A stretch of 64,000 nt of DNA, taken from positions 1 through 64,000 of the IMG/VR virus record IMGVR_UViG_3300031963_000089; one strand, given 5' to 3'. The notes beneath the pieces were generated by a model. It saw only the letters and a list, made by a program, of their open reading frames with translations. It was not told the DNA's origin and ran no database searches. Position numbers and translations under genes: made by a program. The DNA comes from a virus. Shown here in pieces: positions 6,171 to 50,421 of this stretch (position 1 is the first letter of the stretch; each line of letters starts with the position of its first letter).

Positions 6171-6759
6171 TTTCTATTAAGTTTTTAAATTTTTCATAAT
6201 CAAATGCCGGACTTATATCGGTATATCTACTATTATAATTACTTCTACATACAATACCGTTGAATAATTTAACACCATCAACTTTTGTATTATGTCCAAT
6301 AAACTTATTGTCTATTGAAAATTTTACAAGTAATTTTTTTGAGAGCTCTACAAGTGAATTTAATTGTTCTTCACTATATGGTTCCCAATATAACTTATCC
6401 TTCCATTTTTTTTGAAAAATAGATTTACTATAAATATCCCCAATCCAATTAGAATACGATAAACCTAATGGTGTTTTTTGTAACCATCCAAGATTTTCTA
6501 AACAAATTACGATTGAATTTCGATTTACCTCTTGGTCATCAAAATAGTTAGTATAACTATCATCTGAAATTAAGTTTAAAATATTCCCTTCTTTTGTTAT
6601 AAAGTAGTTCGGTATCTTATCATAAGAACCATTCTTACGATATTTTAATGAATTAAGAAAATTTTCAGCGGGACGAAAACTATGACAAAGAACTATTTGT
6701 CTTTTTTTCTTATTTTTTTCAAACTTAGGAAACTTTCCATATTTTTTAATATTAAGCAT
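6157..6759 (-). CDS. N-acetylmuramoyl-L-alanine amidase (Amidase_2 fold endolysin), 200 aa
   Basis: The protein has the plan of T7-lysozyme/PGRP-type zinc amidases, which cut the bond between MurNAc and the stem peptide L-Ala. Visible features are the first zinc-ligand strand IVLCHSF (His26), the IPNYFITKEGNILNLI segment (about 49-64), NSIVICLENLGW (about 81-92), GHNTKV with the second His (156) and YTDISPAFDYEKF near the end, where Asp181 occupies the usual third-ligand place. There is no signal peptide, so release would need a holin or other membrane disruption. The gene overlaps the four-helix membrane-protein gene upstream by 8 bases and lies just before the candidate spanins. Confidence 0.85.
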   Translation of the reverse strand: MLNIKKYGKFPKFEKNKKKRQIVLCHSFRPAENFLNSLKYRKNGSYDKIPNYFITKEGNILNLISDDSYTNYFDDQEVNRNSIVICLENLGWLQKTPLGLSYSNWIGDIYSKSIFQKKWKDKLYWEPYSEEQLNSLVELSKKLLVKFSIDNKFIGHNTKVDGVKLFNGIVCRSNYNSRYTDISPAFDYEKFKNLIENDER

Positions 6760-7690
6760 CCCTCTTTGTATAGTTTAAAACCTTGTAAACTTCACCCTGT
6801 TCGGAAAGTTCATTATTTTTTTTTTCAACCTCTTCAGGTTGTATATCAATTTCTTTATCAAGTAATCCCATGTAGACAGTATTATCATACTGACTTTCTT
6901 CAGTAATAGGTTTAATTTCTTCGATAGGTTCTTCTACAACATCTTTAGTTATTATTTGATTATTATTAATATTTTCATTAACAATTTCAGTATAAGCATT
7001 TAAAACTTCTTCAATTTTACGTAAATCTTCTTCTGATGGTTGGTATGGGTTACTTTTAGGTTTTTGTTCAACAGGATAGTTATTTTTTATTATTTCCTCT
7101 AACTTATCCAATTCTTCACTAGTAGGTGTCCATTTTTCTTTCTCTTTCTCTTTAATTTGTTCTTCAAATATCTTTTGAACATCTTCCTCGGTCAATTCAG
7201 TTTTAATATCCTCAACCACTTCTTTATTCTTTTCAGTAAATTTAACCAACATGTGAGCAAATGTAAGAGAGATGATTGGTAGTAATCCACCAGTTAAAAA
7301 AGCTAAAACTGTCTTATGACTATTCAAATCAGTTTTTTCAATTCCCATATTCTCAAACAAACCTCCAACCATTGAAATCCAATCTTGGAATGTTTGTGAT
7401 GTTTCATCAATATATGTAAATGAAAAGAATATGTTCCCCAACATTTGAATAAATGTTACGATGATAAACGGGAAATAAACAAACCTACCCATGTTAACTG
7501 ACACCGCTGCCAAGGCCGATAATGCCGCAATTTCAATACCCACCGAAAGGTATATAGCCCAAGTAAAAGGATTAGATAAACCATAAAAACTCGTAACGTG
7601 TGATATAGACACAAACGCTACGAGTAATATTGGAATAACAAAAGCTAAAGAAATTATGTTTGTTAAATTTCTACTAAACCAATTTTTCAT
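6752..7690 (-). CDS. Four-helix membrane protein with long acidic tail, next to the endolysin
   Basis: Four hydrophobic segments are visible at about residues 9-30, 41-65, 69-92 and 127-150. They are followed by a roughly 160-residue cytoplasmic-type tail rich in Glu, Lys and Pro (TPTSEELDKLEEIIKNN ... VEEPIEEIKPITEE). The start overlaps the stop of the gene upstream by four bases and the 3' end overlaps the amidase by eight. The position suggests a lysis or membrane-remodelling role, possibly as an unusual holin, but the large soluble tail is not typical of holins. Function uncertain. Confidence 0.65.
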   Translation of the reverse strand: MKNWFSRNLTNIISLAFVIPILLVAFVSISHVTSFYGLSNPFTWAIYLSVGIEIAALSALAAVSVNMGRFVYFPFIIVTFIQMLGNIFFSFTYIDETSQTFQDWISMVGGLFENMGIEKTDLNSHKTVLAFLTGGLLPIISLTFAHMLVKFTEKNKEVVEDIKTELTEEDVQKIFEEQIKEKEKEKWTPTSEELDKLEEIIKNNYPVEQKPKSNPYQPSEEDLRKIEEVLNAYTEIVNENINNNQIITKDVVEEPIEEIKPITEESQYDNTVYMGLLDKEIDIQPEEVEKKNNELSEQGEVYKVLNYTKRDA

Positions 7691-38000: not shown

Positions 38001-41000
38001 AACCTGTACTTCCACTTGAGCCAGAACTTCCACTAGTACCTGTTGAGCCAGAACTTCCACTTGAACCAGAAGAACCCGATGTACCAACACTACCTGAACT
38101 ACCACTAGAACCTGAACTTCCTGATGAACCACTAGAACCTGAAGTTCCAGATGTACCAGAAGAACCTGTTATTCCAGAACTTCCACTTGAACCTGACGAG
38201 CCTGAAGACCCTGATGTACCGACACTACCACTAGAACCAGACGTTCCACTTGAACCTGTACTTCCGGATGAACCTGAACTACCTGAGGTACCCACAGAAC
38301 CTGATGTTCCTGAACTACCTGAACTACCTGATGTACCCGCAGAACCTGAAGAACCACTTGTCCCCGATGTACCTGAGCTACCACTATTACCTGAAGTTCC
38401 GCTAGTACCATTAGTACCGTCAACACCACTCAAACCTGAAGAACCCGATGTTCCAACACTACCTGAACTACCACTACTACCACTTGACCCCGCACTTCCT
38501 GAAGAGCCACTTGTACCAGCAGTTCCTGAAGTACCAACAGAACCAGAACTACCACTTGAACCCGAAGAACCTGATGTTCCAACACTACCAGAACTTCCTG
38601 AAGAGCCTGTACTTCCACTTGAACCTGATGTTCCTGCAGAACCAGAACTTCCTGAAGAGCCTGTGCTTCCACTTGAACCTGATGTTCCTGAACTACCTGT
38701 TATACCACTTGAACCTGAACTTCCTGAGGAACCAGAAGAACCTGATGTTCCCGAAGAGCCAGTTAGTCCTGAACTTCCACTACTACCACTAGACCCTGTA
38801 CTTCCTGAAGAACCTGAACTACCAGAAGTTCCAGATGTACCAGTACTACCTGATGTCCCTGAAGAACCATTAACACCAGAACTTCCTGATGAACCTGTAC
38901 TTCCACTACTTCCTGATGTCCCACTTGAACCTGAAGTTCCACTTGAACCTGAAGTTCCAGCAGAGCCAGAGCTACCACTTGAACCTGAGCTACCAGCACT
39001 TCCGCTTGAACCTGATGTTCCTGAGCTACCGCTTATTCCACTTGAGCCTGATGAACCAGCACTGCCACTTGAGCCTGATGAACCTGATGTTCCTGTACTA
39101 CCTGATGACCCCGTACTTCCACTTGAACCAGAACTTCCAGATGTTCCAGATGAACCTGTTAAACCTGAACTACCCGATGAACCCGAAGAACCTGTGCTAC
39201 CTGACGTTCCTGAACTACCACTAGTGCCTGAAGAACCTGTGCTACCTGACGTTCCGCTAGTACCTGAACTTCCAGTTAATCCACTACTTCCAGAACTTCC
39301 ACTTGAACCTGATATTCCTGAACTTCCTGATGAACCCGTACTTCCACTTGAACCTGACGAACCAGCACTACCTGATGTACCAGAAGAACCTGTTAACCCA
39401 CTTGAACCTGATGACCCTGATGAGCCTGAAGAACCCGAAGAACCCGAAGAACCCGAAGAACCCGATGTACCACTTGAACCTGTACTTCCTGAAGAACCAC
39501 TTGAGCCCGAACTTCCTGATGTACCTGAACTACCAGTAATACCACTTGACCCACTAGAACCTGAAGAGCCTGATGTACCACTAGAGCCTGAAGACCCTGA
39601 TGTTCCTGAAGTTCCAACACTTCCCGAAGAACCACTTGAACCTGAAGAACCAGATGTTCCTGAAGTTCCAACACTTCCCGAAGAACCACTTGAGCCCGAT
39701 GAGCCACTTGAGCCTGAACTACCTGATGAGCCAGACGTACCTGAAGTTCCAGATGAACCTGAGCTACCTGAAGAACCACTTGTTCCTGATGAACCTGAGG
39801 TACCACTTGAACCTGAGGTTCCAGCACTACCACTACTTCCTGATGTTCCTGAACTACCACTTGTACCAGAACTTCCTGATTCACCTGATGAACCAGAACT
39901 TCCTGAAGAACCATCCGCTCCATTATGAATCCAAGAAAATGTATATGTGCTACCACTTGTTAAATTACCATTACAAGTAAAAGGTATGTCTAAAGTAATA
40001 TCCCAATAAGGTCCATTATTAACTATAGTTAAAATTTTGTAAATACCTAATATAGGAAAATTACCAACTTCTTCAATCTGTAAATAAACTTCTTGACTTA
40101 AATTGATAGAATCTTGAATTGCGGTTAACCAATTATCATAATTAATATTATAAACATCATTATCTGCAATAGATATATAATTTACTGAACATAACTCATT
40201 AATGTTTGTTGCAAAAAACCCTTGGTTAGGGTCATTTGGGGTAACTATAGATGATGTCCATAACCATCTACCGCTATTAGCACCGTCATTACCACTATAT
40301 CCACTTGAGCCAGATGTACCAGATGTCCCACTAGCACCATCAACACCGTTTATACCACTTGTTCCAGCACTACCACTTGAGCCAGAGCTACCCGATGTAC
40401 CCGAACTTCCTGAAGAACCGGCGGAACCTGAACTCCCTGACGTACCGCTAGTACCATCACCACCTGAAACGGTAATACCTGTAACACTTACAACGGTACC
40501 ATCACTATTATATAATTCTAAAGTGCTTGTACCTGAAAAGAACGTACCACCAGTTAATTCTGTTCCTTGAGCAAAAACTCTCCATCTCGCATCATTTCTT
40601 GATGTTCCACTAACACCTTCAATTGTTGAACCTGTCCAAGCGTTAATAAATGCCTGTCCTTCAGGTGTATTATTTTTTACAATTGTCTCATAAGATAATT
40701 GAGTAACAGAATTAGCACTTACCGCAGCGTCCCATAAATCGTTATAGTTGTCTATTTGAAATTGGTATGCCGTTTCAGTTTCATTAACCCAAACAATCAT
40801 ACCTAACCTTCTTCTACCTGATGAAAAATTATCAGAGTTAAGGGTTAAATAAGTCGGCATAAATGTACCATTACCAATTGTGATATTAATTGGGATAGTA
40901 TTTGCACTAAGTTGTTGTTGTCCCTTCCCACTAAATGACAACCCTAAATTAGTAAGGTAAGCGGCTTCTTGCCAACCCCCAACATTTAAGACGTTAAAGT

Positions 41001-41085
41001 TGGTTCCGTATGGACTTGTTCTTGCTACACTGAAAGGTCCTGTTATTTGGGACGCACTTATTGGATTTTGATACGGTATTGCCAT
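35089..41085 (-). CDS. Giant collagen-like tail fibre, 1998 aa
   Basis: The N-terminal ~200 residues (MAIPYQNPISASQITGPFSV, SSGRRRLGMIVWVNETETAY, GQAFINAWTGSTIEGVSG) are homologous to those of the protein at 50421-54533 and probably form the attachment domain. A short collagen-like stretch (about 207-270) precedes a globular insert (NSGRWLWTSSIVTPND... to about 385). About 387-1844 are Gly-X-Y triplets of Gly/Ser/Thr. The C-terminus (GFNTIANPADYRILTASGTS, LTFDGTTLGITGDT) repeats a module of the 50421 protein and then ends in a unique beta domain (WADVNKGSWNISISTRITI), a likely tip. It is the gene just downstream of the glycosyltransferase-containing block. Confidence 0.88.
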   Translation of the reverse strand: MAIPYQNPISASQITGPFSVARTSPYGTNFNVLNVGGWQEAAYLTNLGLSFSGKGQQQLSANTIPINITIGNGTFMPTYLTLNSDNFSSGRRRLGMIVWVNETETAYQFQIDNYNDLWDAAVSANSVTQLSYETIVKNNTPEGQAFINAWTGSTIEGVSGTSRNDARWRVFAQGTELTGGTFFSGTSTLELYNSDGTVVSVTGITVSGGDGTSGTSGSSGSAGSSGSSGTSGSSGSSGSAGTSGINGVDGASGTSGTSGSSGYSGNDGANSGRWLWTSSIVTPNDPNQGFFATNINELCSVNYISIADNDVYNINYDNWLTAIQDSINLSQEVYLQIEEVGNFPILGIYKILTIVNNGPYWDITLDIPFTCNGNLTSGSTYTFSWIHNGADGSSGSSGSSGESGSSGTSGSSGTSGSSGSAGTSGSSGTSGSSGTSGSSGSSGSSGTSGTSGSSGSSGSSGSSGSSGSSGSVGTSGTSGSSGSSGSSGSVGTSGTSGSSGSSGTSGSSGSSGSSGITGSSGTSGSSGSSGSSGSTGSSGTSGSSGSSGSSGSSGSSGSSGSSGLTGSSGTSGSAGSSGSSGSTGSSGSSGISGSSGSSGSSGLTGSSGTSGTSGSTGSSGTSGSSGTSGSTGSSGSSGSSGLTGSSGTSGSSGSSGSTGSSGSTGTSGSSGSSGSAGSSGSSGISGSSGTSGSSGSAGSSGSSGSSGSAGTSGSSGTSGSSGTSGSSGSTGSSGSSGVNGSSGTSGSTGTSGTSGSSGSSGSTGSSGSSGSSGLTGSSGTSGSSGSSGSSGSSGITGSSGTSGSSGSTGSSGSSGSAGTSGSSGSTGSSGSSGSVGTSGSSGSSGSSGSVGTSGTAGTSGSSGSAGSSGSSGSSGSVGTSGSSGLSGVDGTNGTSGTSGNSGSSGTSGTSGSSGSAGTSGSSGSSGTSGSVGTSGSSGSSGSTGSSGTSGSSGSVGTSGSSGSSGSSGSSGITGSSGTSGTSGSSGSSGSSGSSGSSGSVGTSGSSGSSGSSGSTGTSGSSGSSGSTGSSGTSGSSGSVGTSGSSGSSGSSGSSGSSGSSGSSGTSGSVGTSGSSGSSGLTGSSGTSGSSGSSGSSGSVGTSGTSGSSGSSGSSGSTGSSGTSGSSGSSGSSGLTGSSGTSGSSGSSGSVGTSGSSGSSGSVGTSGSSGSSGSSGSVGTSGSAGTSGSSGSSGSSGSTGSSGTSGSTGTSGSSGSSGSSGSSGSSGSVGTSGSSGSSGTSGSTGSSGSSGSSGTSGSSGSAGSSGSSGSTGTSGSSGSVGTSGSSGSSGSSGSSGLTGSSGTSGSSGSSGSTGSSGSSGTSGSSGSSGSSGSSGSVGTSGSAGTSGSSGTSGSSGSTGTSGSSGSSGSVGTSGSSGSSGSVGTSGSSGSSGSSGSSGLTGSSGTSGSSGSSGSSGSSGSTGTSGSTGTSGSSGSSGSSGSVGTSGSSGTSGSSGSSGSSGSSGLTGSSGTSGSSGSSGSVGTSGSSGSSGSSGTSGSSGSSGSSGSSGSSGSVGTSGSSGTSGSSGSSGSSGSSGSVGTSGSSGSSGTSGSTGSSGTSGSSGSSGSSGTSGSSGSSGSSGSSGSVGTSGSSGTSGSSGSSGSSGSSGSSGSVGTSGTSGSSGSSGSSGSSGSAGTSGTSGSSGSSGSSGSSGSSGSTGTSGSSGSSGSVGTSGSSGISGSSGTSGSSGSSGSSGSVGTSGSSGTSGSSGSSGSSGSSGSVGTSGSSGSVGTSGSSGSSGSSGTSGSSGSSGTSGSSGSSGSTGTSGSSGTSGSSGSSGSSGSSGTSGSSGSSGSSGSSGSSGSSGTSGSSGTSGSSGTSGSSGSSGSSGSSGTSGSSGSAGTSGTGFNTIANPADYRILTASGTSTNSAIAQSKLTFDGTTLGITGDTVEYGKQSLTSCSGTSITASTRICSFSTSLGRSAIFDYWVNNPTTTATRGGQVMSIWDTSNATYVDISTPDLNDSTLGIELRVTVSGGNVEFWADVNKGSWNISISTRITI
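35556..39925 (-). repeat. Collagen-like Gly-Ser-Ser/Gly-Thr-Ser repeat, about 4.4 kb
   Basis: About 1,455 codons of GSS/GTS/GSV/GST/GLT-type triplets in the 1998-aa fibre, with scrambled synonymous codons. A higher-order unit of roughly SSGSSGSVGTSG recurs. A second short tract lies at about 40275-40465 of the same gene. Confidence 0.9.
39431..39466 (-). repeat. Four exact 9-bp repeats
   Basis: The unit gaacccgaa occurs four times in a row (last copy with one end mismatch), coding consecutive GSS triplets with identical codons. It is the most exact short tandem repeat I noticed in the collagen-like tracts and is therefore a candidate slippage site. Confidence 0.75.
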
Positions 41086-41113: not shown

Positions 41114-42319
41114 TTAGGTTTTATATACCCCTTTGAAGTAGTAATTATTTTTATCAGGAAGTTTTGGTGGTAACAATCCGTCATTAGATAAGTATAAAAT
41201 TCTATATGTTCCCGCAGGTATTGAACCACCTGAGGTTATAACATCCCCAACCGAAATTTTAGGGTCAGGAGTTGCTAAAATGTCAAAGTCACAAGGTTGT
41301 GACTGATAGCCCACATTTACACTCATATTATTCAAAGTTCCTCCGACACCATCAAGTGGTATCCAAATCGTATACATGTACTGTAAACTAGTATTAATAT
41401 CACTATTATTAACTTCAATAGTTTCAAATGTGTATTGGTTAATCAAACATCCAAAACTATCTTTAATCGTACTTGGGAACTGATTTAAAGCACCTTTTAA
41501 GTTTGTAGGTTGTACAAAGTTTCCTGTTCCACCTGTAAATCCTGAGTATGATGCGTATTTGTTCATCATATAACTGTAATTTGGACTTGTTGGTAATGGA
41601 AGCGCTCCTGAATTACCCCATCCGTACCAACTAACATTAGTGTCAGGTGTTACACCATCCGCTAAGTAATACATATAACTTCCTAATCCAAACAACGAAC
41701 CACCTGCAGAAGAATCTTGAGGTTCTGCAAATACGTAAGCATAATACAAAGGTTTTGTAATAGATGGTGTTGGAGTAAATGTTGGTGTTGTAGTAACTGT
41801 TGGTGTAACAGTTTGTGTAACACTTGGTGTAAGAGATATTGTTGGTGTAACACTTGGGGTAATTGATGGTGTCGGTGTTGGTGTCGCTGGTAGAGCCGGC
41901 GCATTACAACATGGTCTATCAATAATGTAAGGATTATTAGTCGGATAAGAGTAAGAATTTAAACTAAAACTACTTAAAACACTTATATATAATTTTTCAG
42001 GTAACGGTATGATAACAATCCCCTGAGATGACTGTTTTAAAAACTGAACTAAAAACTTACCTTCATTTTTTGTTTCTCTACTTGTGAATTGATAATTCAC
42101 ATAATAAGTAATATCTAAAGGATTTACTGTAGACGCACTTGTTGTAATATAACATTCTTTGGATGCAACAATATATTTTTTATTAACTTCGTCATATACC
42201 GAAATTAAAATTGTATTACCCGAAATATTTTCATCTAAACCAAAATCACTTCTTCCGTTTTTTGATACCTCAACTTGGAAAACTGGTAACGTTGAATTTT
42301 TCTTAATAAACCATTCCAT
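41114..42319 (-). CDS. Modular fibre protein: N-terminal domain, Thr-Pro linker, shared C-terminal domain, 401 aa
   Basis: With the start at 42319 (MEWFIKKNSTLPVFQVEVSK) the gene begins two bases after the upstream stop; an ATG at 42346 would overlap it. Residues 1-~135 are homologous to the whole 122-aa protein encoded just upstream (MEFFINKGATLPVLKMQVVK). A Cys pair (RPCCNAPALP) and a Thr-Pro linker (about 143-188) follow. The C-terminal domain (YYAYVFAEPQDSS ... MNKYASYSGFTGG) is shared with the protein at 54543-55547 ([14 protein letters not shown] ... [13 protein letters not shown]). It looks like a product of domain shuffling. Role probably in the distal tail or on the fibre surface. 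Confidence 0.72.
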   Translation of the reverse strand: MEWFIKKNSTLPVFQVEVSKNGRSDFGLDENISGNTILISVYDEVNKKYIVASKECYITTSASTVNPLDITYYVNYQFTSRETKNEGKFLVQFLKQSSQGIVIIPLPEKLYISVLSSFSLNSYSYPTNNPYIIDRPCCNAPALPATPTPTPSITPSVTPTISLTPSVTQTVTPTVTTTPTFTPTPSITKPLYYAYVFAEPQDSSAGGSLFGLGSYMYYLADGVTPDTNVSWYGWGNSGALPLPTSPNYSYMMNKYASYSGFTGGTGNFVQPTNLKGALNQFPSTIKDSFGCLINQYTFETIEVNNSDINTSLQYMYTIWIPLDGVGGTLNNMSVNVGYQSQPCDFDILATPDPKISVGDVITSGGSIPAGTYRILYLSNDGLLPPKLPDKNNYYFKGVYKT

Positions 42320-42320
42320 A

Positions 42321-42689
42321 TTAGATAGATACGTAACTATTACCAATTTTTATCGTTAGTTTTTCTCTGATTGGTAAAATGTAAGTTCCTGTATCAGTAA
42401 TAAAAACAAACTCCCCTTCATAAAGACCTTCTCTACTTGTATCACTTGAAGTGAATTTATAATAAACATAATATTCTGTCTCAGCGTTTGGGTCAACAAA
42501 TGTCTTCTCAACAAACCCTCCTTTCTTATTCAGAATCTTATATGCTCCCGTTTTAACATCTATCATGGAAAAGTAAATCAACGAGTTTTCGATTATTGAC
42601 ATGAACTCTGTTATGTCAGCAATACCATCTTTAACCACTTGCATTTTAAGAACAGGTAGTGTTGCACCTTTGTTAATAAAAAATTCCAT
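42321..42689 (-). CDS. Small domain protein homologous to the start of its neighbour, 122 aa
   Basis: MEFFINKGATLPVLKMQVVK and the later YYVYYKFTSSDTSREGLYEG match, residue by residue in pattern, MEWFIKKNSTLPVFQVEVSK and YYVNYQFTSRETKNEGKFLV in the next gene. The domain is all-beta and ends ILPIREKLTIKIGNSYVSI. It exists here alone and there fused to a Thr-Pro linker, which suggests duplication followed by fusion. Likely a structural component of the fibre region; no known family recognised. Confidence 0.65.
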   Translation of the reverse strand: MEFFINKGATLPVLKMQVVKDGIADITEFMSIIENSLIYFSMIDVKTGAYKILNKKGGFVEKTFVDPNAETEYYVYYKFTSSDTSREGLYEGEFVFITDTGTYILPIREKLTIKIGNSYVSI

Positions 42690-42718: not shown

Positions 42719-44389
42719 TCAACATTCTTTCCTTAAATTACTATCATAATGTTCAAATCTATCATGTTCGGTAGGTGTGAGTAGTAAAATACCAGGTTTT
42801 AACTTACCTTTAATTGTGTTTTGGAAGTTGTGAGACATCAAAGTTTGTTCATATGGGTGTTGATATTTTGTCTCCAAATAACATTTATAACTCCCACTTT
42901 TAGAAAGAATAATTGGCCAGTTACATAAATAAATTTCCCCTGACGCATATGGAATACCCTTATGTGTTTTTATCTCGTTGAACTTTGTTTTTGGTGCGTT
43001 TGGGTCTAAACCATGTTGTGGTAATCTTGGGTTTTTTGGCCAATGTTGTTCTCTGAAATTTTGTGGGACATTATACCAACTCCATTGTGTACTATTATCA
43101 CCATAAAATTCTGTGAAATTTAATTTTAGGAAATCAAAGTTTTCTTTATTAACTATCTCTAAACTTTTCTGATATAGATTACTTACATATCTATTAAACC
43201 CATTTCTACACACTTCATTTTTTTGTGAGTAAAAAAACATGTCGTCCTCAAAAAATAACATATAGTCCAACCCTGTTTCATCAAAATGTTCAGCAATCCA
43301 TTGTCTTCCACCTGTAATACCTATATTATCTTTTTTAATATGTTCAAAATCATATTCTTTACAAAGTCTTAAATATTCTTCGGTTGTTGATAGGTCGGTT
43401 GAGTTATCCAATAAAAACTTTTTTGGTTTATCTAAAAAATCTCTATCGTATTCAATCATGGATTGAATTAATGTTTCAAATTGTTTTGGTGAATTAAATG
43501 TTATTACATATAACGCAACTTTATCAATATCTAAATCGTTTTGGATTTTAACAAACTCTGTCTTTTTAACTAAAACATCATCTTTTAAATTTTCGAAGAA
43601 TTTTCCAAATAAACCGTTATAATCGATTTCAAAATAATTTATATATTCTTTTAACTTATAAACCATTATTGAAAATATTGATTCCTCAGTTCCCATGTAC
43701 CCACTCGATAGTGTATCATTCAATAGATTATAATATTCACCATTCATCTGTGATATGGTTTCTTTCGGTCCACCAAAAAATCCTCCACGAGCAACTTTCT
43801 TTACATCATCTTCAGCCCATTCGTTAATCTTTGGGTATGAAAATCCGTGTATCTCATTATTAGCGTCATATGGGAAACAAACGAATGTAAACTTATCAAT
43901 ATACTTACTTAAATTATTTAAAACCTTATCGTGTGTGAAATATCCTGGATGAACTGTATTTGTAAGTCCAGCATCAATCCAAAATAAAAACTCTGAATTA
44001 AATCTGTCAAAAATCCTTGCGTCGTTTAACAAAAACATTTTAGACATAACAAGAGGATTATACATTTCTAATCTACCTTGTGTCGATTCTTTTAACCAAC
44101 CTGATTGATTATACCATTCAGGGTTATTTCTAATTTCTTGTATCTTATTATAAAAGTCATTTTCAACAAACCAACTCTTATCTCTTAAAATAAATTGAGT
44201 ATTACTTTGGTCTCTTCTTTCCCAAACAAAATCCTCTAATTCTTTTTCACCAAAAATTATTAAGTTTTCCTCAACCTTTAATAGTTGTTCAAATTTTTCT
44301 AAATAATGTGAAAAAGAACGAGACCAACCTTCTTCAAGGTTTTCTCTACCAATATTCCACAATCCTGTAACTAATGTAATATTACTCAT
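42719..44389 (-). CDS. Two-domain glycosyltransferase-like protein (HtrL/YibB-like plus GT2-like), 556 aa
   Basis: The N-terminal half (MSNITLVTGLWNIGRENLEE ... FLFWIDAGLTNTVHPG at about 134-149 ... CFPYDANNEIHGF ... RGGFFGGPKE) has the layout of the HtrL/YibB (WlaTC-like) family linked to surface glycan synthesis. The C-terminal half starts near residue 289 (VALYVITFNSPKQFETLIQS) and has a GT-A-type acidic motif, MLFFEDDMFFY (about 380), as in family 2 glycosyltransferases. Two sugar-transfer domains in one chain suggest successive transfers to one acceptor. It overlaps the next gene by four bases and is part of a five-gene sugar-transfer cassette within the fibre operon. Confidence 0.75.
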   Translation of the reverse strand: MSNITLVTGLWNIGRENLEEGWSRSFSHYLEKFEQLLKVEENLIIFGEKELEDFVWERRDQSNTQFILRDKSWFVENDFYNKIQEIRNNPEWYNQSGWLKESTQGRLEMYNPLVMSKMFLLNDARIFDRFNSEFLFWIDAGLTNTVHPGYFTHDKVLNNLSKYIDKFTFVCFPYDANNEIHGFSYPKINEWAEDDVKKVARGGFFGGPKETISQMNGEYYNLLNDTLSSGYMGTEESIFSIMVYKLKEYINYFEIDYNGLFGKFFENLKDDVLVKKTEFVKIQNDLDIDKVALYVITFNSPKQFETLIQSMIEYDRDFLDKPKKFLLDNSTDLSTTEEYLRLCKEYDFEHIKKDNIGITGGRQWIAEHFDETGLDYMLFFEDDMFFYSQKNEVCRNGFNRYVSNLYQKSLEIVNKENFDFLKLNFTEFYGDNSTQWSWYNVPQNFREQHWPKNPRLPQHGLDPNAPKTKFNEIKTHKGIPYASGEIYLCNWPIILSKSGSYKCYLETKYQHPYEQTLMSHNFQNTIKGKLKPGILLLTPTEHDRFEHYDSNLRKEC

Positions 44390-44949
44390 TCTGTATCTCT
44401 AACTTTATAGATTATATAATCAACAAATTCACTTTCAAACATTTGTCCTATCTCTTCATAAAAAATAACATCTCCAAAAACATCTTCTTGAAACATCGGT
44501 AAATTATGTGTGTTTGGAATCACACCCATACATTTACCTACATTACCTCTTGTGAAATCTTTTAATTTCCAATTAACATCACCTAACCAATTGTGTTTGA
44601 ATATGTATAACTTGTTTTTATCTTTAACACTTTCTTTAATTACTTTGAATGCTTCTTCAGTGTATCTATCATCATCATCGGCAAACATTATAAAATCACC
44701 TTCTAATGAATTAATGTTCTCATTAATTAATGGATGTCCGTATTTCCACTTTTGTTCCCCTTGATTTAATATATGATTAACTTTGAATTTAAACTCATAT
44801 CTTGATAATACTTCTGAAACAAAGTCGTGATTAATATCAGAGATTATTGTAAAAATATCTGTTGGGTCTAATTGGTCTTTGAATGACTCAATTAATCTTG
44901 GCAGTGTTTCTCTCCCGATTGAAGTACAAACAATATTAAGACTAAACAT
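44386..44949 (-). CDS. GT-A-type glycosyltransferase-like protein (GT2-like), 187 aa
   Basis: The start MFSLNIVCTSIGRETLPRLI, the helix LIESFKDQLDPTDIFTIISD and the acidic motif FIMFADDDDRYTEEAF (about residues 90-105) follow the nucleotide-sugar-binding half of GT-A enzymes, with DDD as the likely metal/donor site. It is short for a full GT2 enzyme, so the acceptor side is small. It overlaps the gene before it by eight bases and the one after by four. The acceptor is unknown; the fibre proteins encoded on both sides are candidates. Confidence 0.72.
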   Translation of the reverse strand: MFSLNIVCTSIGRETLPRLIESFKDQLDPTDIFTIISDINHDFVSEVLSRYEFKFKVNHILNQGEQKWKYGHPLINENINSLEGDFIMFADDDDRYTEEAFKVIKESVKDKNKLYIFKHNWLGDVNWKLKDFTRGNVGKCMGVIPNTHNLPMFQEDVFGDVIFYEEIGQMFESEFVDYIIYKVRDTE

Positions 44950-45805
44950 AACATTTCTCCCTTACATATTTTGTTTCATCATAAATGTCTAAAATTTCTA
45001 AAAACGCTTTTTGTAAGTCTAACCAATCACCAAATTCAAAAGCGTGACATTCATCCGAATGTTTACCTGTAATAGCCGTGAGAACTTCTTGTTCACTAAT
45101 AAGTTGGTTATGTGTTGTTAAGTATTGATTAAAAATGTCTAAATATCCATTTAAAATATGTCTAACTTTTTCTGATGTTCCACCGAATAGACATCCAGGA
45201 ACAACCTTTAATTCAACACCAAATAGTTGATTGAATTTAGAAACTGTTTCATAGTTCATCACAATTGAATTACCTTTCAAATGAATAAACCCGTGTTGGT
45301 TTATTTTATCAACCACCTTATCCAAAAAGTTTTTTGAATTAATTAGTGGAGCCATATAATCTCTCCACCCATCATGACAAGACGTTCCAATCAAACCAGC
45401 ATCAATCCAAAAGATATTATCACAATCATGTGATTCATCAATTAAGAATTTAAGTTTATTTAAAACAACTTCTAAATAATTGTTAACACAATAAATTCTA
45501 TCATAGTTAATTCCACCCGATAATTCTTGAGTTCTAATTCTATCAATTAATTCACAAGTTTCAGAAGTATTTAATTCTTTAAATTTAAATTCAACATTTG
45601 GAAAATTAAATTCATACTTTAAATTGAACTTATCATATGAATTTTGGTCAGTATAAATTACGTAACGATATTCAGGATAAATTATGTTTTTAATTGTTGC
45701 AACCAATAATGAAAAATTTTTATATCTCTCACTATTAATTCCTTCAACATATTTTAATTCATAAATCGCCGAAATTATTTTAGTACCATTTGTCATGTTC
45801 TGCAT
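44942..45805 (-). CDS. HtrL/YibB-like glycosyltransferase-family protein, 287 aa
   Basis: The protein shares the motif IFWIDAGLIGTS (about 127-138) and the later VPGCLFGGTSEKV with the N-terminal half of the 556-aa neighbour, and has the same order of blocks (GTKIISAIYELKYVEG at the start, YRYVIYTDQNS). This matches the HtrL/YibB family of presumed sugar transferases. The first ATG (45805) overlaps the gene before by 26 bases; an ATG at 45796 is an alternative. It has no membrane segment, so it would act in the cytoplasm during virion production. Confidence 0.7.
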   Translation of the reverse strand: MQNMTNGTKIISAIYELKYVEGINSERYKNFSLLVATIKNIIYPEYRYVIYTDQNSYDKFNLKYEFNFPNVEFKFKELNTSETCELIDRIRTQELSGGINYDRIYCVNNYLEVVLNKLKFLIDESHDCDNIFWIDAGLIGTSCHDGWRDYMAPLINSKNFLDKVVDKINQHGFIHLKGNSIVMNYETVSKFNQLFGVELKVVPGCLFGGTSEKVRHILNGYLDIFNQYLTTHNQLISEQEVLTAITGKHSDECHAFEFGDWLDLQKAFLEILDIYDETKYVREKCYV

Positions 45806-46490
45806 ATATTATATTTGATGCTTTATAAGCATTATTTTTTATTTCAATTCCATTCAATAATGCCGAGAAACACATCTCATCTATGTTACCAGCGGGTATG
45901 TTTCTTAAACCTTTTTCTTTTTTATATTCAATACACTTGTCCCAAGTATCTAAAAAACTATTAAACTTATCTTCATCAATACTCAAGTATTGAATACAAT
46001 CTTCAGGCATAACCTCCAACTTATCTTTATCAACCTCATGATTGAAATACTTTTCATACTCAAGTAATCGTCTACCTAATTCACTATTGGTATGAACTTG
46101 TTCGTTAAAATTATATGTTACAGGCCCTGATAAACAATTTTCATCAAACGCCCCCAAAATCTTTTCTTGATTAAAAAAAGATGGGTTAACTCTCATATCA
46201 CAATCAACTAATATGATTTTAGTAAAACCAATACTTAAAGCAGCTCTTAACGAATATCTTTTAACTGAAAAATCAAAGTCATAGTAGTTTTTAGCATACT
46301 CCAAATAATTTGGATTAAAATCATTAATGTTAAAAGTGTGGACAAATTCTTGATTATTAATCTTACTTGGGTCATCAGTAATGACAACCAAATTTGTTTT
46401 ATAATCTGATTCTATGATATCACCAATAAATCTATTAACTTGGTTATAATATCTTTCACCAAAACAAAAAGTAGCAAATGTAAATTTCAT
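45780..46490 (-). CDS. Glycosyltransferase-like protein with DxD motif, 236 aa
   Basis: MKFTFATFCFGERYYNQVNR, NLVVITDDPSKIN and FTKIILVDCDMRVNPSFF (about 91-108, with the DCD motif) outline a Rossmann-like nucleotide-sugar domain similar to family 8-type or other retaining GT-A enzymes. A later EMCFSALLNGIEI segment resembles the acceptor-side helix of such proteins. It begins three bases after the stop of the GT60-like gene. The donor sugar and acceptor cannot be read from the sequence. Confidence 0.68.
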   Translation of the reverse strand: MKFTFATFCFGERYYNQVNRFIGDIIESDYKTNLVVITDDPSKINNQEFVHTFNINDFNPNYLEYAKNYYDFDFSVKRYSLRAALSIGFTKIILVDCDMRVNPSFFNQEKILGAFDENCLSGPVTYNFNEQVHTNSELGRRLLEYEKYFNHEVDKDKLEVMPEDCIQYLSIDEDKFNSFLDTWDKCIEYKKEKGLRNIPAGNIDEMCFSALLNGIEIKNNAYKASNIIYAEHDKWY

Positions 46491-46493
46491 ATC

Positions 46494-47738
46494 TTATAAA
46501 TTTCCTGTTATTCTATCACACCATCCTTTAGATTCCGAGTGTGGCCAAACCACCCAATATTTAGGTTTTGAATCAGTTAAGAACTCTCTCCAAACTTTAC
46601 AATAACCATCAGGGTCTCTTAGCATTCTATCAACTTCACCTTTATCAGCATCTTGTCTGTAAATGGTTTCATCTAATTCATTATGGAACGCAACAACCCA
46701 AAAGTCATAATCCTTTTCAGGTACTTGAGTAAACCCAATATCAATACAATGTTTGAATACTGATGTAAATGATTTTAACCATTCTTCTTCTGAATTGAAG
46801 TTATTTGGATTAGGTGGATAACCTTTATCTAATGTATATTGTTGAACGGCTCTCTTTGAAAAGAGTAGTCCTGAATATTTTTCATAATCTCTTAAACTTC
46901 TAACTTTACCAAAACCATATTTTCCGTGATTCATATTTTCCTCACCATCCATACCAAATAGAGAACGATTTTTCTTGTGAGCAAAATTATTCTTATCCAC
47001 CCATTGTTTATCGTCGTCCCATTGTTTGGTTCTACCTTTGCGAGTATATTCATGCCAAATCAAAACTTTGTGTGGGTGGAATAAATCATATCCGTGAGTG
47101 TAAGCTCTTGCGGCAATTGAAATCTCTTCTCCGTGAAAATAAAACTCAGGGTCGTGTTGAACTTCTTTAGCGAACTTACCAAGAGTAAAACAGAAGTGAG
47201 CGGAATAAAATCTTGCGGTAACAGGTTCAGTTAGATTTTGCCAACCAGGAATTGTTTCAGGTAAAAAGAAAACCGCACCTTCAGGAATAAATCTATCAAA
47301 CGCCATTCTCCACGGCTCGTTAACACGTAAACTTGGGTCATTGTCAGGGTCAAATGATGAAACATATCCTGTCAATAAAGGTTTCTTATATCCTTTCTTT
47401 TGAAGTTGTTTAATCATCTTAATCATCTCATCATCCCAATCTTCAGCAAACCTCATGTGTGAGTCAATTTGAAGAGTGTAATTTTCCTTATCATACACTT
47501 GTTGTATTTGATTTCTCGCCCAACATGCTCCTCTAGATTCATAATAAGGAATATCAATTATTCTAAATCTTTCATCATCTCTATATTCATCTAAATTATC
47601 AAAATTATCATCGCGATGATACTGACGAGCAATACCGAAAACTAAGTTTTCAGGTCGTTTAGCATTTTCTAATGCAGATTTTATAGTTGGGATTAACTGT
47701 GGGTCTCTATAAGACGCAACTTGTATAAAAATTTTCAT
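46494..47738 (-). CDS. GT60-type polypeptide N-acetylglucosaminyltransferase-like protein, 414 aa
   Basis: The protein follows the GlcNAc-transferase family (CAZy GT60, Skp1-hydroxyproline GlcNAc-transferase type): IFIQVASYRDPQLIPTIKSA at the start, ESRGACWARNQIQQVYDKEN (about 67-86), the DxH motif in TLQIDSHMRFAEDWD (Asp92, His94), PLLTGYVSSFDPDNDP, and FYFHGEEISIAARAYTHGYD followed by IWHEYTR. Characterised members add GlcNAc to a hydroxyproline of Skp1 in Dictyostelium, and the family is related to mucin-type polypeptide GalNAc-transferases. Protein acceptors are therefore the expected substrate class. It heads the five-gene cassette, after a 53-base gap from the discoidin-domain fibre gene. 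No prolyl hydroxylase is present in the window. Confidence 0.8.
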   Translation of the reverse strand: MKIFIQVASYRDPQLIPTIKSALENAKRPENLVFGIARQYHRDDNFDNLDEYRDDERFRIIDIPYYESRGACWARNQIQQVYDKENYTLQIDSHMRFAEDWDDEMIKMIKQLQKKGYKKPLLTGYVSSFDPDNDPSLRVNEPWRMAFDRFIPEGAVFFLPETIPGWQNLTEPVTARFYSAHFCFTLGKFAKEVQHDPEFYFHGEEISIAARAYTHGYDLFHPHKVLIWHEYTRKGRTKQWDDDKQWVDKNNFAHKKNRSLFGMDGEENMNHGKYGFGKVRSLRDYEKYSGLLFSKRAVQQYTLDKGYPPNPNNFNSEEEWLKSFTSVFKHCIDIGFTQVPEKDYDFWVVAFHNELDETIYRQDADKGEVDRMLRDPDGYCKVWREFLTDSKPKYWVVWPHSESKGWCDRITGNL

Positions 47739-47791: not shown

Positions 47792-48598
47792 TTAATAAGT
47801 TTGAGCAGTTTGATATGTTTGTCTTGCAACAGTTGCAGTAAAGTTATTTACAGTATGTAGCGTAGTCCATGTTGTTCCATTATTACTACCCGCAATAGTC
47901 CATGATTTAGGGTCTCTACTTTCAGCATCATTTGCGGTAGCCCATCTATATCCATTAAATGTTTTAGCAGTTGAGAACTGAAATATAAAATTAGTAACAT
48001 TTCCGTTTGAGACAAAGTTTAAATCTAATCCTTTTGTTGCCAAATTACCATCAATTAATTTTGAGGGTTCTTCACCTACAGGATTACTACCACCAGGATT
48101 TGTAACGGTAACACCCGTCATACTTTGGTCAACACCATTTAACCTAAAAACAAATTCAGCAGCCTGTACAGCATTAGCATCAGGTGGCGATGTCTTTGTT
48201 TGAGTTATTTGCCATCTATAATAAGTAAATGAACTAACATAAGATGTCCAATATCCTGATGAGTTCAACCATGTTTTAGCCGCGGATGCACTTGCAAATG
48301 TTTGTGGTGTTCCCGTAAAACTTGATACGTACTGAGACAAACTAATAAAGTTATTATCTGTCTTACCTGATGTTCTCCAAAAACCAATATAAGCAGGAAC
48401 TCCAACAGGATTTGGTTGTGTTCCTGATGGAACAGTATGAGCAATCACATAACCCAAATCTTCATCAGGCCCATTCCACCATCTTAAACCTGTGGATGTA
48501 AACCCACTTGTTGGTGTACCAATAGCAATACTTCCGACTTGTTCTGTCCCTGATATTGTTGAACCTGTGTTATATGCGAAGGGTCTTGATGTTGCCAT
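47792..48598 (-). CDS. Fibre protein with discoidin-like carbohydrate-binding domain, 268 aa
   Basis: The first half (MATSRPFAYNTGSTISGTEQ, GLRWWNGPDEDLGYVIAH) is a domain seen in phage and Bacteroidota surface proteins. The second half, from about residue 125, has the F5/8 type C (discoidin, CBM32-like) plan: YRWQITQTK..., AAEFVFRLNG, LIDGNLATKGLDLNF, FIFQFSTAKTFNGYRWATAN, and SWTIAGSNNGTTWTTLHT. Such domains bind galactose- or glucosamine-type sugars. The protein could bind host surface glycans, or glycans on the phage's own fibres. It stands next to the GT60-like gene. Confidence 0.75.
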   Translation of the reverse strand: MATSRPFAYNTGSTISGTEQVGSIAIGTPTSGFTSTGLRWWNGPDEDLGYVIAHTVPSGTQPNPVGVPAYIGFWRTSGKTDNNFISLSQYVSSFTGTPQTFASASAAKTWLNSSGYWTSYVSSFTYYRWQITQTKTSPPDANAVQAAEFVFRLNGVDQSMTGVTVTNPGGSNPVGEEPSKLIDGNLATKGLDLNFVSNGNVTNFIFQFSTAKTFNGYRWATANDAESRDPKSWTIAGSNNGTTWTTLHTVNNFTATVARQTYQTAQTY

Positions 48599-48603: not shown

Positions 48604-50421
48604 TTATAATCCATATTTTGATTTAGTATTATTATAGTTTGTTGTTACATCACTGGCGGTTAATCCTGTGGTATAAAAATAACAGGCACCTATTTTACCA
48701 TTTAAATAAAGTGATGATATACCAGTACCAATGTAACCCAAATAAAGAGGGTTAGTTTCACTATATGTATCAGTACCATGAGCGGTTGTTATATATTCGG
48801 TATTATTAATATACACTTTGGTGGTATTAGCAGTTGAGGTAATTCGTGAAACAAATGTAAATAAATACCAAGTATTAATTGAAACGGTTAACGTAGAGTC
48901 GGATATTTTTTGAACCCCCGTTCCATTTGTAACTACCCTCACAACGCCAGCATTCGAGAATAACCCACCCCAATACCCATCAAATCCAAATGAACTGGAT
49001 AGTTTTCCAAAGACCGGAACTTGTTGACCTGAACTAGGTAAAACGTCAAATTTAACCCAAACTTGTATTGTTCTTTGGGTTGTAGTATTTAAACTAAGAT
49101 TAGCAGTATGAGGTATACTTATTGTATTACTAGTCCCATTTAAATCAAAAATACCTCCGTCAGTAGACAACCAAGTGGCACCATTTATAGTTGCGTTATT
49201 CCCATTCCCCGTTTCATCAGTCCAAGTACCACTAACATAATTAGTTGCATCTAACTTCATAAATAAATTACTACTAATTACCCCACCCTCACTTGTTGAT
49301 GACGGAGTAATTGTTGGTGTTGGTGTAATTGTATTTGTTGGGGTTTGTGTTGGTGTTGGAGTATTAGTTTGAGTGTTAGTAGGTGTAATTGTTGGTGTTA
49401 TTGAAGGTGTTGGAGTTTGAGTATTAGTTGGAGTTGGAGTAGGTGATGGTGAAATAAATCTTGATGAAAATGAATTAAAGTTTGTTAACACTTCTGTTGA
49501 ACTTAAAACTCTATTGTAAGTCATTGCAATTGAAACTCTACCATTTAATAAATTACCTCCTGCGCCATAAGAACCAATCCTTGTAGAACCATTACCACTT
49601 ACAGGTGTTTTTTGAGCAGTATATGTACTATCCTGAACACCATTAACATATAGAATGAAACCATTTGTTGTGTCAAAAGTAAGACATGCATTATACCAAA
49701 CACCATTACTAAAACTTGTTGTTGAGGGATAAACACCATAATTACCCCAATTTGAGTGTCCACAGTATAATTTATTTGAACCTGCAAAATACATAAAGTG
49801 TCCACCCGTATCGCTACTTAATAAGTTGTTATCAGCAGTTGAGTTTAGGTAAAACCAAACGTTTTTAGTATATGCTGTTATTCCAACAGGAGTACCTGCA
49901 ACGTTAACATATTGATTACTTCCGTTAAATGTAAGGTATCCATTATTACTTGAACTGAATGTCGGAGTATTAATTAATGTTCCGTTGTTACCACTAAAAC
50001 TTAAATCATCCCATCGTGAACCACTTCTTGGATATGATGAAACATAACCAGCATCAAGTAATAATGTTAATCCATTAGTTACAATATCAGGATAATCAAG
50101 GTTAACACAAATAAGTCCTGTTTGACCTGTATACCATCCTAACGCTTCGTTAGCGGTACTAAATGTTTGACCTGCAAATCCTTGAGTAAACCCAATAAGT
50201 TCTGAGTCGTTTTGAGCAACCACTATGGATGGTCCGGCAACAGCCTTGTTTCCATACATGGTATAACCACCTGATGGTGGTATAATAGAATTCCAAAATC
50301 CTGTAACACTTGTTGGCCCGTATTCCGCACCTTCATTAATACCTAAAACCCAATCCTTAACTTTAATCGTATTAGGATGAAAGGACGTTGAGTATTTTAT
50401 TTTATTTGGTGGTATTGGCAT
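48604..50421 (-). CDS. Fibre protein with two LamG-like domains joined by a Thr-Pro linker, 605 aa
   Basis: The ATG at 50421 overlaps the upstream stop as TAATG and is preferred over one at 50451. Residues 1-~110 are an N-terminal domain (MPIPPNKIKYSTSFHPNTIK ...). About 114-323 form a concanavalin-A/LamG-type sandwich (LLLDAGYVSSYP, LTFNGSNQYVNVAG, WYNACLTFDTTNGFILYVNG, RIGSYGAGGNLLNGRVSIAM). About 324-379 are a Thr-Pro linker. About 380-605 are a second sandwich of the same kind (LDATNYVSGTWTDETGNGNN ... VWVKFDVLPSS ... INNTEYITTAHG ... LYLNGKIGACYFY). LamG-type domains commonly bind sugars or proteins. Probably a receptor-binding or glycan-recognition fibre. Confidence 0.78.
   Translation of the reverse strand: MPIPPNKIKYSTSFHPNTIKVKDWVLGINEGAEYGPTSVTGFWNSIIPPSGGYTMYGNKAVAGPSIVVAQNDSELIGFTQGFAGQTFSTANEALGWYTGQTGLICVNLDYPDIVTNGLTLLLDAGYVSSYPRSGSRWDDLSFSGNNGTLINTPTFSSSNNGYLTFNGSNQYVNVAGTPVGITAYTKNVWFYLNSTADNNLLSSDTGGHFMYFAGSNKLYCGHSNWGNYGVYPSTTSFSNGVWYNACLTFDTTNGFILYVNGVQDSTYTAQKTPVSGNGSTRIGSYGAGGNLLNGRVSIAMTYNRVLSSTEVLTNFNSFSSRFISPSPTPTPTNTQTPTPSITPTITPTNTQTNTPTPTQTPTNTITPTPTITPSSTSEGGVISSNLFMKLDATNYVSGTWTDETGNGNNATINGATWLSTDGGIFDLNGTSNTISIPHTANLSLNTTTQRTIQVWVKFDVLPSSGQQVPVFGKLSSSFGFDGYWGGLFSNAGVVRVVTNGTGVQKISDSTLTVSINTWYLFTFVSRITSTANTTKVYINNTEYITTAHGTDTYSETNPLYLGYIGTGISSLYLNGKIGACYFYTTGLTASDVTTNYNNTKSKYGL
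49285..49450 (-). repeat. Thr-Pro linker between LamG-like domains
   Basis: About 55 codons of (Thr-Pro)n with Ser, Asn, Gln and Ile spacers, the same composition as the linkers in three other genes. The DNA repeats tgttggtgt/tgttggagt-type units with third-base variation. Confidence 0.8.

Follow-up and report, generated by a model that had tools for sequence, protein, structure and literature searches.

Mucin-type and Skp1 O-glycosylation in protists starts with a GT60 polypeptide transferase (pp-alpha-GlcNAcT), which is followed by bifunctional transferases. The viral gene cassette described here likewise has a GT60 homologue as its proposed starter, and its enzymes, like those of the protist/Skp1 system, appear soluble and cytoplasmic. 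In the Dictyostelium Skp1 pathway the second enzyme is a bifunctional GT2/GT74 protein, and its counterpart in the cassette is also a two-domain fusion; GT60 relatives modify Ser/Thr in proteins (both from the part of PMC8724618 available). Unlike the Skp1 pathway, however, the cassette is phage encoded, its second enzyme combines HtrL_YibB with a GT-A domain, and its extension genes are exchangeable. The animal GT27 transferases (ppGalNAc-Ts) are the closest listed solved folds to the GT60 homologue, 46494 (genes are named by their lower coordinate), and share with it a DxH motif, whose replacement of DxD has been reported for GT27 and GT60 (PMC7185993, available part). They differ from 46494, which is a PF11397 protein, has no lectin domain by Pfam, and is predicted to be cytoplasmic.

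Glycosylation of phage virions has been described as seldom identified (PMC5852040, available part). Xanthomonas phage XacN1 and Stenotrophomonas phage RAS14 have the same cassette ends as our locus, whereas their interior has a carbamoyltransferase and the genes that follow the fusion are encoded on the opposite strand. Mycobacteriophages also carry glycans on virion proteins, although at the C-termini of the capsid and tail tube rather than on Thr/Ser-Pro (TP) stalks as proposed here (Freeman et al. 2023, as cited in the available part of PMC12619734). The clusters of jumbo cyanophages are polymorphic and contain several glycosyltransferase families, like the cassette, and have been read as modifying host polysaccharide (PMC7824862, available part). 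Moraphages, which are aquatic, Bacteroidota-associated jumbo phages and perhaps the lineage of our phage, have four core putative glycosyltransferase orthogroups, and the available text mentions neither a cassette nor GT60 nor a connection with TP repeats (PMC12619734). Our literature search, covering titles and the beginnings of abstracts with subscription journals mostly outside, gave no match for GT60 together with phage and no paper connecting phage virions with GT60 or with TP repeats.

Organization of the cassette

The window, i.e., the whole 64-kb stretch of DNA analysed (64,000 nucleotides of a giant aquatic phage), carries the cassette at 42719-47738 as five consecutive minus-strand open reading frames (ORFs) among co-directional fibre genes, as the first-pass annotation had it (Table 1). 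Its statement that these genes overlap each other was nearly right: three junctions overlap (by 26, 8, and 4 bases), and that between the GT60 gene and 45780 is a 3-base gap. No intrinsic terminator was found between 41 and 51 kb, and promoter-like sites were no commoner than in shuffled sequences (55 versus 52.2). None of the five enzymes has a membrane segment (19-residue hydropathy maxima of 0.71 to 1.21, compared with 2.72 for the window ORF at 6752-7690, which has a hydrophobic stretch). Gly-Ser/Thr tracts were found in 27028, 35089, and 50421, and TP tracts in 41114, 48604 (where the tract follows the lectin-like domain), 54543, and the plus-strand gene 16021; 47792, the immediate upstream neighbour of the GT60 gene, has no TP tract.

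Table 1. Features of the window relevant to the cassette
Coordinates	Strand	Feature	Size and basis
46494..47738	-	Polypeptide glycosyltransferase of the GT60 type, proposed to initiate the glycan	414 aa; PF11397, AlphaFold fold
45780..46490	-	Putative glycosyltransferase carrying D96-x-D98; exchangeable gene of the interior	236 aa
44942..45805	-	Putative glycosyltransferase resembling HtrL/YibB; exchangeable gene of the interior	287 aa; profile match to fusion
44386..44949	-	Small GT2-like glycosyltransferase; exchangeable gene of the interior	187 aa; PF00535
42719..44389	-	HtrL_YibB + GT-A fusion, conserved last gene	556 aa; PF09612
44390..46490	-	Exchangeable interior block	blastn against L008, L009, L010
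42321..42689	-	Small conserved domain 3' of cassette	Relatives
41114..42346	-	Fibre-like candidate acceptor carrying a Thr/Ser-Pro tract	10 [ST]P in 60 aa
48604..50451	-	Laminin-G-like virion protein, proposed acceptor	PF13385, E 4.7e-26; 14 [ST]P in 60 aa
54543..55547	-	Candidate acceptor with a Thr/Ser-Pro tract	16 [ST]P in 60 aa
16021..18477	+	Thr/Ser-Pro tract and beta-propeller protein, possible acceptor	16 [ST]P in 60 aa; PF10282, E 3e-15
47792..48598	-	F5/8 type C-like protein directly upstream of GT60	PF00754, E 5.8e-6, below cut-off
50421..54533	-	Collagen-like/Gly-Ser fibre	PF01391, E 1.3e-19; tract count
35089..41085	-	Gly-Ser-Ser fibre, acceptor favoured by the first-pass annotation	Tract count
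27028..34938	-	Gly-Ser-Ser fibre	Tract count

The five cassette enzymes

The proposed GT60-like nature of 46494 was borne out by a Pfam match to PF11397 (E 2.7e-68; 231.4 bits against a curated cut-off of 21) and by a match to PHROG 24687 (E 7.6e-171). The protein bears the marks of the PF11397 family, namely DxH in the place of DxD (D92-S93-H94) and a conserved C-terminal His (H229, with a putative metal-binding role), as well as GEE at 203-205, and D92, H94, E205, and H229 were unchanged across 57 sequences. Structure prediction, recommended as a check by the first-pass annotation, yielded an AlphaFold model with a pLDDT of 95.3 and a pTM of 0.88 from 57 diverse sequences, compared with a pLDDT of 49 from a 17-sequence alignment. 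In VIA-align, rows 1 to 29 for this model were all ppGalNAc-Ts (Z 19.4 to 22.5; the best other listed row, 16.7), and the top 22 among the Foldseek matches listed were ppGalNAc-Ts as well. The predicted fold is a ppGalNAc-T-like GT-A fold, nearest to the mucin-type ppGalNAc-Ts among the solved folds listed. The C-terminal ricin-like lectin domain that characterizes GT27 gave no Pfam match in 46494 at E ≤ 0.1. A profile search of solved-structure sequences returned nothing for 46494, 45780, or 44942, and two meaningless matches only for the 42719 fusion.

The N-terminal half of 42719 matched HtrL_YibB (PF09612, E 2.7e-13), as expected of an HtrL plus GT2 fusion, whereas the half supposed to be GT2 had only weak matches to GT-A sugar transferases (TAGT in Pfam, 0.0027; phrog_842 in PHROG, 2e-5). 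The GT2-like label of 44386 found a PF00535 match (E 8.8e-5) that, at 22.9 bits, lies slightly under the Pfam cut-off of 23.3. No Pfam family, PF09612 included, matched 44942 directly; comparison of profiles by hhalign did connect it with the HtrL portion of the 42719 fusion (probability, 98.7; E 2.9e-16), making HtrL/YibB-like a putative assignment. For 45780, annotated as a DxD-type sugar transferase, no family was found in Pfam, PHROG, or profile searches, nor did its profile match the fusion. The motif itself held, D96 and D98 being kept in all nine relatives compared, so a glycosyltransferase is plausible but unproven; in locus L052, a relative forms one protein with regions that weakly match a methyltransferase and GT25.

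Fixed ends and a variable middle

One scan of viral contigs returned 399 GT60 relatives, and given that number the cassette occurs more than chance would allow. Taking the best 80 of the 399 as loci, which share ancestry so that counts over them are not independent, we found the fusion downstream of GT60 in 76 of 80, with all genes of the GT60-to-fusion stretch on one strand in 76/76. GT60 comes first and the HtrL-GT2 fusion last, with 2 to 13 varying genes between. The first-examined DNA of the remaining four loci (L027, L041, L042, and L043) held no fusion; on the L042 contig (G002), one with 67% identity comes after 21 interior ORFs (approximately 17.5 kb). In three close relatives, the interior block is replaced at gene borders by non-aligning DNA, and both flanks are 92 to 95% identical (blastn, E ≤ 1e-10). 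A family scan of 120 representatives of the 214 distinct interior ORFs (299 in total), with 25 of 45 families listed, gave among the matches listed FkbM, GT10, GT11, GT25, PLOD GT, UDP-Gal mutase, UDP-GlcNAc 2-epimerase, and DegT, which by sequence match are glycan-building families.

The cassette ends are also kept in XacN1 (GT60, ORF334; fusion, ORF330) and RAS14, where ORF330 and its counterpart are homologous to the 42719 fusion. The only XacN1 genes named as glycosyltransferases in the available text are ORF328 and ORF334 (PMC5852040). In the XacN1-like set, the fusion is on the strand of GT60 in 13 of 17 loci and on the opposite strand in L114, and there was none among the rows listed for L105 (where the contig ends), L116, and L117.

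Association of GT60 with Thr/Ser-Pro repeats

We defined a TP tract as at least eight [ST]P per 60 aa, a threshold fixed after the first bacterial examples had been seen, and a Gly-Ser tract as at least eight triplets per 60 aa. That Thr-Pro sequence might be the acceptor gained support, since such proteins track GT60: there were 15 among 300 ORFs in XacN1, 12/432 in RAS14, and 8/331 in G001, as opposed to 0/466 in RaK2, 0/436 in CBB, and 0/326 in phiKZ, the three nearly whole jumbo phages without GT60 that were counted (GAP32 was left out). The PF11397 search of the four GT60-minus phages found none, with no control match there; the same search succeeds in GT60-positive phages. PF11397 was present in 12 of 30 contigs containing TPTPTPTPT-encoding DNA and was not found in the other 18, as against 0 of 30 neutral-pattern contigs (Fisher, 1.2e-4); the former were 30 of at least 80 listed (47 to 229 kb) and the latter 30 of 80 (30 to 337 kb), mostly the longest in each, with lengths unmatched between the sets.

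The distance of TP genes from GT60 was counted after removal of duplicates and of loci in which ORF calling gave no GT60. This left 52 distinct GT60 sequences from the first viral lineage (80 loci), 15 of the 17 loci of the XacN1-like set, and 72 of the 80 from bacteria. In the bacterial contigs, TP-repeat genes made up 16/383 genes at up to three positions from GT60, in 15 of 72 loci, versus 0/443 farther away (Fisher, 5e-6, computed on an earlier far count of 0/428), and 11/264 within two positions versus 0/336 at five or more. Jiulongibacter sediminis is one bacterium with a TP-repeat protein encoded next to GT60. The other 57 bacterial loci had no TP gene inside three positions. Of the 16 TP genes, 5 sit at position +3; 4 of these belong to Burkholderiaceae, and there the link could be accidental. 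The GT60 genes of Paraburkholderia and of one Neisseriaceae bacterium lie among T6SS-like genes, beside a secreted or fimbrial-type gene, suggesting that GT60 acceptors vary. In the first viral lineage, the immediate upstream neighbour of GT60 was TP-rich in 24 of 51 cases, and in XacN1-like loci that position had a TP tract in 2 of 15, though the genomes hold many.

The first-pass annotation had favoured as acceptors the Gly-Ser-Ser/Gly-Thr-Ser (collagen-like) fibres, whose tracts lie on either side of the cassette and would offer the protein Ser/Thr that GT60 relatives target (PMC8724618, available part). However, GT60-positive XacN1 (0/300 ORFs), RAS14 (0/432), and G001 (0/331) have no Gly-Ser tract, and only 1 of the 51 upstream neighbours in the first viral lineage has one, against the 24 with TP. 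We dropped these tracts as the acceptor and regard them as an improbable target.

Alternative targets of the enzymes

It is likewise improbable that the glycans are placed elsewhere on the virion, on the small downstream domain, the capsid, or the tail tube as in mycobacteriophages. A 42321-like domain does lie directly 3' of the fusion in many first-lineage loci, and in some relatives it forms part of a larger protein; the XacN1 glycoproteins are unnamed in the available text (PMC5852040), and capsid and tail-tube glycans have the mycobacteriophage precedent (cited in PMC12619734). Such a site would, however, leave the TP association in both phages and bacteria unexplained.

We consider it quite unlikely that the enzymes modify host surface polysaccharide for serotype conversion or superinfection exclusion. 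A phage serotype-conversion (Gtr) module comprises a membrane-bound flippase and a lipid-linked sugar transferase, and no such membrane protein was found among the five cassette proteins, none of which has a membrane segment. The interior genes do resemble O-antigen/capsule genes (GT25, GT10, DegT, UDP-Gal mutase, and 2-epimerase), and a jumbo-phage survey interprets cyanophage clusters as modifying outer polysaccharide (PMC7824862, available part); against this stand the position amid structural genes with no terminator found, the conserved first gene, a polypeptide-transferase homologue, and the TP association.

An Asn marks true thymidylate synthases (TS), while hydroxymethylases are TS-like proteins with Asp. 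We consider glycosylation of hydroxymethylated phage DNA very unlikely, although the moraphage paper names DNA glucosylation as a role that phage glycosyltransferases may have (PMC12619734, available part) and the C-half of the fusion shows a weak likeness to TAGT and the T4 glucosyl-HMC glucosyltransferase: in 10 genomes, possibly fragments, TS-like proteins occurred in 8, each with the true-synthase Asn, TAGT matches were below the cut-off in 3, all at the position of the fusion (shown for G002), and Tet_JBP was found in none, without a positive control match.

Proposed mechanism and implications

Glycosylation of virion proteins from within the fibre operon, as first proposed from the annotation, is well supported by the GT60 homology, the ppGalNAc-T-like fold, and the lack of membrane segments and, further, by the 41-51 kb region in which no terminator was found, the ordinary Asn-type thymidylate synthases of relatives, and the at least two unnamed glycoproteins reported in XacN1 virions from a supplementary figure (PMC5852040, available part). 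The original search of the deposited XacN1 virion data (PXD008065) took Met oxidation and Asn/Gln deamidation as its dynamic modifications (PMC5852040, available part). XacN1 reportedly has no visible tail fibres, and "fibre" may therefore be the wrong virion part. The cassette is probably a mucin-type O-glycosylation system acting on TP stalks of the virion; to the gene order, homology, predicted fold, interior swapping, and TP-repeat association that were observed, this adds the acceptor, sugars, order of steps, and benefit, which we infer. GT60 would add the first sugar, probably an alpha-linked HexNAc, to Thr/Ser in the host cytoplasm, within the TP stalks of freshly synthesized, fibre-like virion proteins whose genes surround its own. 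The conserved fusion, acting as a bifunctional enzyme, would then extend the core sugar, and the exchangeable interior genes (here 45780, 44942, and 44386; elsewhere fucosyltransferases, methyltransferases, a carbamoyltransferase, and sugar-synthesis genes) would assemble and modify an outer glycan that varies in a serotype-like manner. The likely benefit would be stalks that are rigid, protease-resistant, and antigenically variable.

If true, this would be a new case of virion glycosylation, with a mucin-type initiator, glycan genes that can be exchanged, and a likely repeat acceptor that each phage has in 8 to 15 proteins. It would also give a reason why Thr-Pro repeats are so extreme in proteins of jumbo phages. 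GT60 together with TP repeats would provide a simple sequence rule by which phages with a sugar coat, and mucin-like proteins of bacteria, could be recognized, and a GT60 active in the bacterial cytoplasm could be a tool for producing mucin-type glycoproteins. We see about equal reason to accept and to doubt the broader view that GT60 and the HtrL-GT2 fusion form a portable prokaryotic mucin core that makes mucin-like stalks out of Thr/Ser-Pro repeats, serving jumbo phages on many virion proteins together and bacteria on secreted repeat proteins, with the middle swapped as a unit in phages. Were it correct, phages would alter the sugars that cover their particles by exchanging the middle genes, which would be the viral equivalent of O-antigen switching.

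A same-strand cassette encodes a GT60 protein resembling ppGalNAc-transferases

The virus record totals 75,026 bases, the window being its first 64,000, and five minus-strand genes run from 42719 to 47738. The first-pass annotation had placed this run amid fibre genes, and the same-strand ORFs and fibre-like flanks bear this out. Its GT60, HtrL-like, GT2-like, and HtrL-fusion calls also held, but 45780 fits no family. No intrinsic terminators were detected at 41 to 51 kb of the window, versus 3.7 in shuffles, and a hydrophobic membrane stretch was absent from all five enzymes. The long antisense ORFs opposite the Gly-Ser giants are probably by-products of repeat codons.

Features of the cassette and its surroundings in the window
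ORF	Strand	Location	Assignment
46494-47738	-	cassette	clear PF11397 (GT60) protein by Pfam search
45780-46490	-	cassette	no assignment from family search
44942-45805	-	cassette	groups with the HtrL half of 42719 in profile comparison
44386-44949	-	cassette	GT2-like
42719-44389	-	cassette	fusion; one half HtrL_YibB (E 2.7e-13), other half GT-A-like
47792		one flank	weak F5/8 type C match
48604		same flank as 47792	Laminin-G-like protein; Thr/Ser-Pro tract
50421		same flank as 47792	collagen-like fibre
42321		opposite flank	small conserved protein
41114		opposite flank	Thr-Pro protein; Thr/Ser-Pro tract
35089 and 27028		opposite flank	two Gly-Ser-rich giants
54543		near cassette	Thr/Ser-Pro tract
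16021-18477	+	amid minus-strand genes	long ORF; dense Thr-Pro tract and beta-propeller
27074-31693	+	antisense to Gly-Ser giants	1539 aa
35543-39928	+	antisense to Gly-Ser giants	1461 aa

Structure prediction of the GT60 protein, proposed at the first pass, gave a poor first AlphaFold model and a confident one with 57 diverse sequences (pLDDT 95.3, pTM 0.88). Its nearest folds were ppGalNAc-transferases, which made up the top 22 Foldseek matches in the PDB (best E 3.5e-10) and filled rows 1-29 of a second structural alignment (Z 19.4-22.5), with other glycosyltransferases following after a step (Z 16.7). D92, H94, E205, and H229 are invariant across the 57 GT60 sequences. GT27 and GT60 are described as having the metal motif in DxH form, and polypeptide Ser/Thr O-glycosylation is said to be common to both (PMC7185993). 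GT60 enzymes of protists are described as beginning O-glycans on Thr or hydroxyproline, a bifunctional transferase acting after the GT60 step in the Skp1 pathway (PMC8724618; PMC3769586).

The cassette has fixed ends and an exchangeable interior

A viral contig scan yielded 399 GT60 relatives, and in 76 of the best 80 of these, which were retained, the fusion lay downstream of GT60. The stretch between them was on a single strand throughout in 76/76 and held 2 to 13 ORFs. Very large cassettes include L045, with 13 ORFs, and one of the four other loci (G002:C1:59551-79969; L093, L094), with 21 ORFs over ~17.5 kb between GT60 and fusion. In L021, L024, L047, L063, and L069, the fusion is separated from the following gene by an opposite-strand ORF of 179-208 aa, perhaps a mobile element. 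The 299 interior ORFs (214 distinct) formed 55 single-linkage groups. Among the Pfam matches listed for 120 interior representatives were FkbM methyltransferase, GT25, and GT10 fucosyltransferase (8 each), PLOD-type GT, GT7C, GT2, and CmcI (3 each), DegT (2), and UDP-galactopyranose mutase, UDP-GlcNAc 2-epimerase, and GT11 (one each).

Interior exchange is seen directly in L008, L009, and L010, whose GT60 proteins are 98% identical to that of the window. Their DNA matches the window at 92-95% identity as far as the fusion gene's end (44389-44392), and the match resumes at the GT60 border (46491-46494), with no alignment in between at E 1e-10; their interiors carry an unmatched ORF and a distantly related ORF of HtrL type (22-23% protein identity). 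The cultured jumbo phages XacN1 (GT60, ORF334) and RAS14 keep both ends with a carbamoyltransferase between, their fusions being 43% and 41% identical, respectively, to those of the first viral lineage (the retained loci). The same two ends occur in 13 of 17 XacN1-like viral loci, and one more has an opposite-strand fusion. Among bacterial loci, 11/80 have a fusion relative at most 4 ORFs from GT60, including Saprospiraceae L118 and the isolate Jiulongibacter L125, the latter with a carbamoyltransferase between, and some MAG contigs in this set may be phage. L125 also encodes a second, diverged GT60 (L125:7945-8862, 28% identity) adjoining a Thr-Pro protein.

Thr/Ser-Pro tracts, not Gly-Ser tracts, accompany GT60

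Gly-Ser triplets and [ST]P dipeptides were counted per 60-residue window. The Thr/Ser-Pro (TP) thresholds were picked after the first examples were known, and the loci counted are related by descent. In the GT60-positive phages, a count of 8 or more [ST]P was reached by 15/300 ORFs in XacN1, 12/432 in RAS14, and 8/331 in G001, versus 0/466 in RaK2, 0/436 in CBB, and 0/326 in phiKZ, three phages in which PF11397 was sought and not found and no ORF exceeded 4. Gly-Ser tracts occurred in none of the six. The immediate upstream neighbour of GT60 carries a TP tract in 24/51 first-lineage viral loci and a Gly-Ser tract in 1/51. The Gly-Ser-rich fibres initially favoured as the acceptor are thus not supported. 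In the XacN1-like lineage, this upstream gene has a TP tract in just 2/15 loci, and therefore the TP genes there sit elsewhere in the genome.

In bacterial contigs, TP tracts were found in 16/383 genes (15/72 loci) at most 3 positions from GT60, versus 0/443 further off (Fisher 5e-6, computed on the first far count, 428). At thresholds of 6, 8, and 10, they numbered 14, 11, and 11 of 264 near genes (at most 2 positions) versus 1, 0, and 0 of 336 far genes (at least 5). Position +3 accounts for five of the 16 (four of them from Burkholderiaceae), and these may be chance cases. Genes close to GT60 encode strikingly repetitive proteins, including those in L125 and in L118, which has SPTPTTSVSPSNS repeats and a T9SS sorting domain, and several have twin-arginine-like N-termini, the RR motif being read as an export signal. 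In L148, L155, and L134 (Paraburkholderia and a Neisseriaceae bacterium), GT60 lies amid type VI secretion-like genes, which we take to be TssF/TssA-like, and adjoins a secreted-looking protein, with Fimbrial and MrkD-like domains in L155.

Conversely, among the matches listed, PF11397 was encoded by 12/30 viral contigs with TPTPTPTPT-coding DNA versus 0/30 neutral contigs, the two sets being unmatched in length (Fisher 1.2e-4). The 18/30 in which GT60 was not found may be incomplete, carry the repeat in a different frame, or rely on a different initiating transferase.

Proposed function and alternative targets

Most likely, the cassette decorates virion proteins with a mucin-type O-glycan along their Thr/Ser-Pro stalks; GT60 would begin the glycan, the fusion would lengthen it, and the exchangeable interior genes would vary it. 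Homology, fold, cassette structure, swapping, and TP association are observed, and we infer the acceptor, sugar, and benefit. Published support comes from XacN1, whose virions are reported to contain at least two glycoproteins; tail fibres are described as not seen on XacN1 particles, and therefore these glycoproteins may belong to a non-fibre part of the particle (PMC5852040). Possibly, the glycans go on another virion site. Alteration of host polysaccharide would fit the interior gene types, but the enzymes are soluble, the cassette sits amid structural genes, and the TP association would be unexplained. Glycosylation of phage DNA is disfavoured, the needed base being lacking as far as seen: all 8 thymidylate-synthase-like proteins, found in 8/10 genomes, keep the Asn that marks ordinary synthases, and a Tet/JBP search, run without a positive control, found no match. 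Thymidylate synthase matches were split in two at G001:60011-61096, G005:3879-4964, and G008:199944-202823, the G008 halves lying ~1.9 kb apart, which suggests an inserted element.

Our literature search found no paper connecting phage virions with either GT60 or Thr-Pro repeats. The window phage is perhaps related to the aquatic moraphages, which are described as having four core putative glycosyltransferase groups whose purpose is left open (PMC12619734). As a route to mucin-type O-glycans on virion stalks, the cassette would add a variant form to phage virion glycosylation.
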